This document shows positions 35,003 through 59,715 of a DNA stretch of 64,000 nt, piece after piece. How positions within the stretch are numbered: position 1 is the first letter of the stretch; each line of letters opens with the position of its first letter. The stretch covers positions 802,843 through 866,842 of the forward strand of contig JACRPO010000007.1 in the NCBI GenBank assembly GCA_016223165.1. Direction: 5' to 3'. A program made the translations under genes and the position numbers. Source of the stretch: Burkholderiales bacterium. GTDB taxonomy: Bacteria; Pseudomonadota; Gammaproteobacteria; Burkholderiales; Burkholderiaceae_C. The notes beneath the pieces are model-generated. The model searched no databases. It was not told the DNA's origin and worked only from the letters and a program-made list of their open reading frames with translations.

Positions 35003-35023
35003 GAGGCTGGGGCGCGGCCGCTC

Positions 35024-35184
35024 AGAGCCTGTGAATGAGTCAGCCGCGCCCGAGCGGCGCGCCAGAAGGCGTCGGATCCAGGCGCAAAGCGCAGCCATAT
35101 CGGCTGATATGGCGAGCATTTGCAACGACGAGCCGGCGCCTTCTGGCGTGGCGAGCGGGTGTGGATGACTCGTTCACAGGCTCT
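35024..35184. repeat. 161-bp near-palindromic dispersed repeat, copy 1
   Basis: Terminal inverted repeats AGAGCCTGTGAATGAGTCA / TGACTCGTTCACAGGCTCT (18/19) and central hairpin CCATATC-GGCT-GATATGG; second copy at 50794-50954. Confidence 0.95.
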
Positions 35185-36797
35185 TAGGGCACCGTCGCGT
35201 AGCGCGCCGCGAGCTCGACGAACGCTTCCGCGCCGACCGTCTGCCCGAGTTCTTCCGACAGCAGCGCCGCCACCGGCGCCGCCTGCCGCGCCGCTTCGCG
35301 CGCGTCGAGAAAGAGCAGGCGGCAGCGCCGCGCCAGCACGTCCTCGACCGTGCGCGCCATCTCGTGCCGCGCCGCGAAGCGCACCATCGCCTCGCTGAGC
35401 CCGCCCCGGCCTGTTTCGGCGTCGCGCCACAGCCAGTGCGTGGCGCCGGGCAGGCTGCGCAGCAGATCCGCCTCGCTGCCGTAGCCATGTTCGCCTGGCG
35501 GCTCGCCGAGCGGCCGCCCGGGTGCCGCGCCGAGCAGGGGCAGCCGGGTCGTCGCACCCGCGGGCCGGCGCGCCAGCAGGCCGCGCTCCATGGCGCGGTC
35601 GAGCACGTCCTCGGCCATCGCGCGGTAGGTCGTCCACTTGCCGCCGGTCACGGTGACGAGGCCCGAACGGCCGACCACCACCGTGTGTTCGCGCGACAGC
35701 GACTTGGTGTGAGCCCTGCCCTCGCCGCCTTCGGCGTCGTTGCCTTCGTCGCCCGGGGGCTTGACCAGCGGCCGCAGCCCCACCCACACCGAGCGCACGT
35801 CGGTGCGCGTCGGCGCGCGCACCAGGTAACGCGCCGCCTCGCCGAGGATGAAGTCGACCTCGGCGGTGAAGGGCGCGGGCTCCAGCGCGAGGTCGCCACG
35901 CGGCGTGTCGGTGGTGCCGAGGAGCGTCTTGCCGAGCCACGGCACCGCGAAGAGCACGCGGCCGTCGCTCGTCTTGGGCACCATGAGCGCATGCGTGCCG
36001 GGCAGGAAGGCGCGGTCGACGACGAGGTGCACACCCTGGCTCGGCGCCACCATCGGCGCGCGCGCGGGCATGCCGGCGTCGCGGTCCATGTCGCGCACCG
36101 CGTCCACCCAGACGCCGGTGGCGTTGATGACGCAGCGCGCGCCGACATCGAAACGGCGCCCGCTCTCGCCGTCCTGCGCGGCCAGGCCGGTGACCCTGCC
36201 CGCCTCGCGGCGCAGGCCCACGACCGGCATGTGGTTGAGCAGCAGCGCACCGCGCGCGGCGGCGGTGCGCGCCAGGGCCACGGCGAGGCGGGCATCGTCG
36301 AACTGGCCGTCCCAGTAGCGCACGCCGCCGGCGAGGCCTTGCCGCATCACCGTGGGCAGCAACTCGGCGGTGCGGCGCGCCGAGAGCCACTCCGTCGGGC
36401 CGAGCCCGCGCGCCCCGGCCAGCGCGTCGTAGAGCTTCAGGCCGATGCCGTAGAAGGGCTGCTCCCAGCGGCGGTAGGTCGGCACCACGAACGGCAGCCG
36501 CTGCGCGAGGTGCGGCGCGTTCGCGAGCAGCGTGCTGCGCTCGACGAGTGCCTCGCGCACGAGCGCCACGTTGCCCTGGGCGAGATAGCGCACGCCGCCG
36601 TGCACGAGCTTGGTGGCGCGCGAGCTCGTGCCCTTCGCGAAATCTTCGGCTTCCAGCAGCACCACCGAGAAGCCGCGCGCCACGGCATCGAGGGCCACGC
36701 CGAGGCCGGTGGCGCCGCCGCCGATGATGGCGAGGTCCCAGGTCTGCGGCGCCGCGAGGCGAGCCAGCAGCGATGCACGATCGAGCGGCGCGGTCAT
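35184..36797 (-). CDS. glpD: Glycerol-3-phosphate dehydrogenase
   Basis: DLAIIGGGATGLGVALDAVARGFSVVLLEAEDFAKGTSSRATKLVHGGVRYLAQGN. Confidence 0.95.
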   Translation of the reverse strand: MTAPLDRASLLARLAAPQTWDLAIIGGGATGLGVALDAVARGFSVVLLEAEDFAKGTSSRATKLVHGGVRYLAQGNVALVREALVERSTLLANAPHLAQRLPFVVPTYRRWEQPFYGIGLKLYDALAGARGLGPTEWLSARRTAELLPTVMRQGLAGGVRYWDGQFDDARLAVALARTAAARGALLLNHMPVVGLRREAGRVTGLAAQDGESGRRFDVGARCVINATGVWVDAVRDMDRDAGMPARAPMVAPSQGVHLVVDRAFLPGTHALMVPKTSDGRVLFAVPWLGKTLLGTTDTPRGDLALEPAPFTAEVDFILGEAARYLVRAPTRTDVRSVWVGLRPLVKPPGDEGNDAEGGEGRAHTKSLSREHTVVVGRSGLVTVTGGKWTTYRAMAEDVLDRAMERGLLARRPAGATTRLPLLGAAPGRPLGEPPGEHGYGSEADLLRSLPGATHWLWRDAETGRGGLSEAMVRFAARHEMARTVEDVLARRCRLLFLDAREAARQAAPVAALLSEELGQTVGAEAFVELAARYATVP

Positions 36798-48810: not shown

Positions 48811-50787
<1,977 letters not shown>

Positions 50788-50793
50788 CGGCGC

Positions 50794-50954
50794 AGAGCCT
50801 GTGAATGAATCAGCCGCGCCCGAGCGACGCGCCAGAAGGCGTCGGATCTAGGCGCAAAGCGCAGCCATATCCGGTGATATGGCGAGCATTTGCAACGACG
50901 GGCCGGCGCCTTCTGGCGTGGCGAGCGGGTGTGGATGATTCGTTCACAGGCTCT
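50794..50954. repeat. 161-bp near-palindromic dispersed repeat, copy 2
   Basis: Same length as copy 1 (35024-35184), 7 substitutions by eye, no indels. Confidence 0.95.
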
Positions 50955-50963
50955 TCAGTATTC

Positions 50964-51590
50964 TCAGAACGACCAGCGCAGCCCGGCGGTGACCATGCTC
51001 CCCACCGTGGTGCCGGTGTTGCGGCCCTCGCCGGTGATGGCGTCCCAGCCCACTTCGAGCGCCGCACGCGGGCCGAGGTGCAGCAGGAAGGCGAGGCCGA
51101 CGCCGGCGGTGAAGATGTGCTGCGCCGCGATGTCGTCGCTGCGCGAATGCCGCACGTCGGCCACTCCGGCGCGCAGCAGCCCTTCGCTGGCCGGGCCGAA
51201 AGGGATCGAGAACACGATGTTGACGCCCAGCGCCTGCATGCGCAGCGAGTCGCGCGGCGTGCGGCCGTTGTCGATGCGGGCGCGGCCGTAGTCGGTCCAG
51301 GTGCCCTCGACGCCGATGCGGCCGAAGCGGTAGCCCAGCCCCACCTTGCCCGCGCCGGCGCGGCCGTAGTCGCAGTCGTCGTAGTAGTAGTAGTCGCTGC
51401 GGCAGTCGAGCTCGTACTGGCTGCCGCCGGCCGCGAACAGCAGATAAGGCCCCGGGCGCTCCGAGTACCAGGTGGAGGGGTCCTGCGCCGCGGCGGCGCC
51501 GGCCGACAGGGCCATCGCCAGGCTGACCGCGCCACACAGGAGCGCTTGCCGAAGGCCAGCCGGCGGCCGTTGCGGAAGGTGTTGCGACAT
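50964..51590 (-). CDS. Putative outer-membrane beta-barrel protein
   Basis: Signal peptide MSQHLPQRPPAGLRQALLCGAVSLAMALSAGAAAAQ; alternating strands; C-terminal VTAGLRWSF. Confidence 0.75.
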   Translation of the reverse strand: MSQHLPQRPPAGLRQALLCGAVSLAMALSAGAAAAQDPSTWYSERPGPYLLFAAGGSQYELDCRSDYYYYDDCDYGRAGAGKVGLGYRFGRIGVEGTWTDYGRARIDNGRTPRDSLRMQALGVNIVFSIPFGPASEGLLRAGVADVRHSRSDDIAAQHIFTAGVGLAFLLHLGPRAALEVGWDAITGEGRNTGTTVGSMVTAGLRWSF

Positions 51591-51695
51591 GGATGAATGC
51601 CTCGCTCGTGAGGGCAGGCACGCTAGCACAGCGATGCCGGCGCTTCGCTGCGCCCTCTCGACGCCGGCCCGAGCGCGCTGCCGCCCGCGCGAAAC

Positions 51696-59640: not shown

Positions 59641-59715
59641 GCGACCGTGGTGAAGTGGATATCATGCGGCCCTCCGAAGGCCGCGTCGCAAGTTCGATTC
59701 TTGCCGGTCGCGCCA
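59641..59715 (+). tRNA. tRNA-Arg (anticodon CCG), CCA encoded
   Basis: Acceptor GCGACCG/CGGTCGC, anticodon arm CGGCC-CTCCGAA-GGCCG, T-arm GCAAG-TTCGATT-CTTGC, discriminator G then CCA; 75 nt. Confidence 0.93.

Follow-up and report, generated by a model that had tools for sequence, protein, structure and literature searches.

The two 161-bp palindromes in the 64,000-nucleotide stretch of Burkholderiales DNA analysed here (the window) belong to a very large family of small mobile elements in Burkholderiales and related bacteria. The family and its spread, the TCA repeat at its insertion sites, its biases in orientation and towards stop codons, its strand-specific structure and four matches to the ends of insertion sequences (ISs) were all observed directly. 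We infer from these observations, in the absence of transposition data, that the element is probably a non-autonomous, MITE-like mobile hairpin that is mobilised in trans by several DDE transposases.

Two copies of a hairpin element in the window

An earlier note, made from the sequence alone, had described two copies of equal length that differ by seven substitutions, and its coordinates and differences matched base for base, with both copies on the same strand. The 19-bp inverted-repeat ends do pair at 18 of 19 positions, the shared inner-arm CGCCAGAAGGCG and the centre CCATATC-N4-GATATGG were both found, two of the substitutions fall in the loop, and the change from GAGTCA/TGACTC to GAATCA/TGATTC was confirmed as compensatory. 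The copies and their surroundings are as follows; the strand of an element or core is the orientation of the fold-conserved strand.

35024..35184, + strand: 161-bp hairpin element, copy 1
35024..35042, + strand: left terminal inverted repeat of copy 1, AGAGCCTGTGAATGAGTCA, 18/19 complementary with the right end (from sequence)
35166..35184, - strand: right terminal inverted repeat of copy 1 (from sequence)
35071..35137, + strand: conserved core hairpin of copy 1 (AGGCG-helix-hairpin-helix-CAACG; covariance model R1, 82.3 bits)
35022..35024, no strand: left TCA of the 3-bp target duplication of copy 1 (sequence and flank counts in 131 copies)
35184..35186, - strand: right duplication partner of copy 1, now TTA, the TAA stop codon of the right-hand gene
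35184..36797, - strand: right-hand gene, FAD-dependent glycerol-3-phosphate dehydrogenase-like (DAO, DAO_C), its stop codon overlapping the end of copy 1
50794..50954, + strand: 161-bp hairpin element, copy 2, oriented as copy 1
50794..50812, + strand: left terminal inverted repeat of copy 2 (from sequence)
50936..50954, - strand: right terminal inverted repeat of copy 2 (from sequence)
50841..50907, + strand: conserved core hairpin of copy 2 (covariance model R1, 81.8 bits)
48811..50787, - strand: ABC-F type ATPase gene, starting 6 bp from the left end of copy 2
50964..51629, - strand: gene upstream of copy 2, on the same strand, with a weak outer-membrane beta-barrel match and its stop 9 bp from copy 2

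The element has no coding capacity and no transposase gene. It folds into a hairpin nearly from end to end, with an MFE of -123.7 kcal/mol on the + strand and -99.8 on the - strand under RNA parameters (-71.1 and -53, respectively, under DNA parameters); the z scores are -13.4 for RNA and -11.5 for DNA, and none of 200 dinucleotide shuffles equalled the native fold. Rfam 15 at the gathering score left the element unmatched in the window and at seven other loci, and membership of an Rfam family was rejected on this basis. The only match at that score in the window is a tRNA gene at positions 59641-59712.

A family found across the class

Searching the 161-mer against its own genome (7.31 Mb, 21 contigs) and other Burkholderiales revealed a large multi-copy family rather than a two-copy curiosity. 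The own genome holds at least 37 full-length copies with 82-100% identity, a lower bound since 40 candidates were scored, and further divergent members were recovered with a covariance model. Three own-genome copies (L038-L040) keep the centre unchanged and bear a second type of end (AGAGGCTGAGAG...) that is common in Massilia; two end types therefore coexist in a single genome. Shorter derivatives of 29-59 bp, which retain both ends and have lost the middle of the hairpin, were also seen in the own genome (L198-L202) and in Massilia glaciei (L259, L265, L277). In three of those from the own genome the deletion junction lies at a repeated CACA, as expected for slippage across a palindrome.

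Hosts include Variovorax, Acidovorax, Rhizobacter, Rubrivivax, Roseateles, Massilia and Cupriavidus, a list limited to Burkholderiales by the search pattern used. The conserved part of the element is its core, in which AGGCG...CAACG surrounds a helix followed by a hairpin, and which also covaries. A 66-nt covariance model of this core, built from 23 cores, was run on a class-wide sample of 369 genomes. Matches came from 72 of them, representing 58 of the 271 genera, and often numbered at least 10 per genome; no more than 14 candidates were scored per genome and the E-values are rough. From 29 class-wide loci we obtained 33 core matches with strong covariation, in an alignment that was fitted to the model. 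Most of the class-wide cores sit in end-to-end hairpins with unrelated arm sequence. Four loci (L302, L356, L363 and L365) each hold two cores that face opposite ways at a distance of about 105 bp and may be a double-core version of the element.

Outside chromosomes the element was found in 5 of 72,556 plasmid records at an E-value of 1e-5. Phage records gave no match, and IMG/VR yielded two contigs with the core (L196 and L197, the latter with two copies), which may be either prophages or mis-binned chromosome. A search of E. coli with a class-wide member gave no match. A literature search by sequence and topic, with partial journal coverage, found no description of this hairpin family, which is apparently undescribed so far.

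Insertion beside TCA and at stop codons

In most of 131 copies the flanks read CTC/A...T/CAG, that is C-TCA-(GAG...CTC)-TCA-G, with TCA on both sides as a target-site duplication. The earlier note had reported that no duplication was apparent, which was incorrect; the 3-bp repeat was overlooked because it is degenerate in both window copies (TCA/TTA in copy 1 and GCA/TTCA in copy 2). The elements of Massilia glaciei follow the CTCAG/TCA rule throughout. Comparison of filled and empty orthologous sites for a Variovorax copy is consistent with the duplication: two species carry a single CTCAG at the empty site, although the left flank has diverged there. In Massilia glaciei, three elements also form a direct tandem array that repeats every 160 bp, with a TCA shared between neighbours (L258, 2400-3700 of contig C228), and at L260 an element is nested within another copy of its own family.

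The insertions are concentrated at the ends of genes: 91 of 124 copies end exactly at a stop codon, the right-hand TCA being the stop of the right-hand gene, compared with about 29% of CTCAG sites lying at stops among stop and intergenic sites. This background is crude, with the elements themselves still included, and the gene calls near the copies were heuristic (length and third-position GC). The orientation is nearly always one way, remaining about 20:2 away from stop codons, and the conserved strand is antisense to the gene whose stop adjoins the element. A symmetric DDE transposase does not explain this fixed orientation rule.

The fold is kept on one strand

The earlier note had proposed, from differences between the two window copies, that the fold itself is maintained. 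Two copies alone are thin evidence for this; the wider family bears the claim out through compensation in the arms, covariation in the core and a strong excess of G.U pairs. The 115 copies of 161 bp in which pairing was counted come from many Burkholderiales; position i was compared with position 162-i over the outer 52 positions. On the + strand of the window the outer arms form 4691 Watson-Crick, 621 G.U and 28 A.C pairs, a G.U to A.C ratio of 22:1, and the other mismatches are mostly purine-purine. Because an A.C mismatch on this strand is a G.U pair on the opposite one, it is on the + strand that pairing matters. Relatedness among the counted copies does not account for the excess: the 14 representatives that share less than 80% identity have 73 G.U and 3 A.C pairs, and the bias is present in each representative at cut-offs of <90, <85 and <80% identity.

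These 14 representatives also show double compensatory changes in 30 of 45 arm stem columns, and covariation in the core lies far above both shuffled and slid controls, in Burkholderiales and class-wide. The + strand forms the more stable fold in all 136 copies of the CTCAG class, in 39 of 42 others (which include some CTCAG-like copies missed by the end filter) and at 22 of 25 class-wide loci. Core and arms both show the covariation for which the earlier note had proposed a check, and neither outcome that it had named as refuting, namely many copies without covariation or a fragment of an ordinary IS, was met. Structural selection is real, and the fold is kept on one strand only. The pairing spectrum fits RNA or folded single-stranded DNA, and our analysis does not separate these.

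Compensatory changes and near-perfect arms would also result from upkeep at the DNA level alone, that is from hairpin-templated correction or conversion between the arms without selection on a folded strand, and the 29-59 bp derivatives with their middle deleted attest to the instability of the palindrome. However, hairpin-templated correction restores Watson-Crick pairs and is strand-symmetric, and it cannot account for a 22-fold excess of G.U over A.C, or for purine-purine internal loops, on the same strand. Since both arm conversion and palindrome correction are symmetric, the strand-biased spectrum does not come from such upkeep, which we consider very unlikely as the whole explanation.

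Selection appears to act during spread

In 28 sequences from the own genome, variants common to several copies keep the pairing: columns 16/146, 72/89, 74/87, 76/85 and 77/84 mostly change together, and the shared variants at columns 13, 15 and 47 are wobbles. Rare private variants often break pairs and fall in paired columns no less frequently than in unpaired ones, with a mild excess of G.U over A.C remaining (20 versus 9). That shared variants preserve pairs and private ones break them suggests that selection acts at spreading and not on the resident copy, and we infer that resident copies decay roughly neutrally while the structure is needed for copying or spread.

This pattern bears on the possibility that the element is a resident regulatory RNA, such as a 3'-UTR stabiliser, a processing site or an insulator, each copy of which is kept after insertion. 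Strand-specific pairing with tolerance of G.U is typical of RNA, and the stop codon found exactly at the element edge in 91 of 124 copies would suit such a role. Nonetheless, private variants are free to disrupt pairing, the gene ending at the element is antisense to the conserved strand, and class-wide copies occur in every gene orientation, including between divergent genes. There is also no U-tract terminator and no promoter pattern at the element, and we judge a regulatory role unlikely. An intrinsic terminator in particular was rejected, as no site with a hairpin and T run was found.

Ends resembling those of insertion sequences

Four arm classes end like the terminal repeats of IS5- or IS630-family elements and likewise share a CTA(G) target context. 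An IS630-family element from Variovorax paradoxus matches the Cupriavidus elements at both of its ends. The other three classes match IS5-family elements: those on plasmids of Pseudomonas aeruginosa and Enterobacter cloacae match the Aquabacterium and Rhizobacter elements at both ends, one from Acidovorax matches L167 and L196 at both ends, and one from Comamonas aquatica, whose other end was not located, matches the Roseateles elements at a single end. The single terminal matches are of 17-23 bp with weak E-values and rely on their position at IS ends; the evidence for three of the four ISs consists of both ends together with the shared target context.

The matching ends could mean that the element is merely a fragment or end of an ordinary IS. 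Yet the similarity is confined to the terminal repeat, the core is absent from those IS loci, the length is fixed at about 161 bp in dozens of copies, and the arms covary rather than vary independently. We rejected the ordinary IS fragment on these grounds and give it almost no credence. An IS5-family insertion sequence as such was rejected as well, there being no transposase gene within the element and no core in IS5 loci. No autonomous IS containing the core and arms was found.

The search for a transposase sharing the 19-bp ends, proposed in the earlier note, failed for the window's own class: plasmid and genome end searches found no IS carrying the ends of the CTCAG class, and the plasmid results were unconvincing. 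Queries of the own genome with PF13586 and with an IS5 transposase yielded at most one weak match, which lacked matching ends, and in a complete genome of another class every end match belonged to a hairpin pair, none of them lying at an IS. Recurrent neighbouring genes, examined as possible linked machinery by reading the clusters without domain scanning, belonged to generic families only. The GTTRRRY core of integron attC sites, judged by the consensus alone, was not recognised at the element ends.

The strand-specific fold and the fixed orientation to TCA would both be accounted for if a Y1 (HUH) transposase recognised the folded + strand and inserted it beside TCA, in the manner of IS200/IS605 or REP-RAYT systems, the likeness to IS ends being secondary. 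Y1_Tnp genes are present in 12 of 15 other genomes tested, but the domain (PF01797) occurs neither in the own genome nor in three other carriers, and no examined Y1 gene is flanked by the element or its ends. Moreover, there is no bias towards the leading or lagging strand (18/32, GC skew being weak in the own genome), and other arm classes bear DDE-type ends. Mobilisation by RAYT/Y1 was rejected because the own genome lacks Y1_Tnp and Y1 genes elsewhere are unflanked, and we leave it only a slim chance. Of the earlier label REP/MITE-like, the MITE part fits and the REP part is not supported. A Massilia RAYT-like Y1 gene (L281) has its own short palindromes (CCGGGGTCTGACCCC) nearby, which are unrelated to the element.

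Discussion

The element meets the description of a MITE in its length (161 bp, within 50-500 bp), its lack of a transposase gene, its terminal inverted repeats in all lineages and its short duplication; ends shared with an autonomous IS are seen in four other arm classes, and for the CTCAG class no such IS was found. If it is indeed a MITE-like hairpin moved by DDE transposases, its terminal inverted repeats would let IS-borne enzymes move it in trans. Different lineages carry the ends of different ISs, several of IS5-family type and one of IS630-family type. The window's class targets CTCAG and duplicates TCA, and its copies survive mainly where the duplicated TCA/TGA leaves the stop codon intact. 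Common to the lineages are the core hairpin and a need for the + strand to fold end to end, which seems to act at copying or spread and not on the resident copy. We infer that the window's class has a DDE transposase of its own, as yet unidentified, and that it is the folded + strand, whether single-stranded DNA or RNA, that is active while the element spreads. The core may have gained its several sets of ends by recombination or by hairpin-primed copying of an IS end.

Against the DDE explanation, no IS with window-class ends was found, and a DDE transposase acting on near-identical ends would not be expected to set the orientation relative to the central C of CTCAG. In addition, we know of no step in DDE transposition that requires a folded single strand. 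A broader reading, in which the core is a selfish structured module that has repeatedly gained the ends of unrelated transposons across the class, and whose one-strand fold (RNA or single-stranded DNA) is active in copying by several DDE transposases, is tentative and on the doubtful side.

Among known systems, IS-derived MITEs such as RUP of pneumococcus (with IS630-Spn1 ends), Correia/NEMIS, ERIC and RPE (PMC2229807) and QMITE2 of Coxiella (PMC10969869) are likewise non-coding, intergenic and 100-200 bp long, with terminal inverted repeats, a short duplication, a long stem-loop and IS-like ends; unlike them, the present family has a single core behind several IS-type ends, is class-wide and conserves its pairing on one strand only. 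YPAL/RU-2, a Yersinia palindrome of 168 bp (De Gregorio et al. 2006), is covered in a review (PMC2229807). It is similar in length, forms a long hairpin, is intergenic and is cotranscribed with upstream genes, whereas its repeats are internal and its duplications range from 3 to 26 bp, in contrast to the terminal repeats and constant TCA found here (the sequences were not compared). REP, BIME and REPIN elements with RAYT (PMC2817692, PMC3116915) are also many-copy extragenic palindromes with strand-specific hairpins, but our element is much longer and has terminal repeats, a TCA duplication and no Y1_Tnp in its genome or beside its copies. TIMEs, which come from different Tn3-family progenitors, resemble it in being non-autonomous, in folding into long stem-loops and in being mobilised in trans; their sequences diverge by progenitor and they stay within the Tn3 family, whereas here the core is common to IS5 and IS630 ends.

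MITEs are usually seen as worn-down copies of one insertion sequence. The family described here inverts this relation: its conserved part is the interior, and the ends differ according to the IS. DDE transposition as it is understood uses double-stranded DNA and reads no fold, yet a one-strand fold is kept. Either there is a hidden single-stranded or RNA step in the spread of the element, or the core helps its spread in some other way. The hairpin family is abundant, being present in about a fifth of the class genomes sampled, and this question is directly testable.
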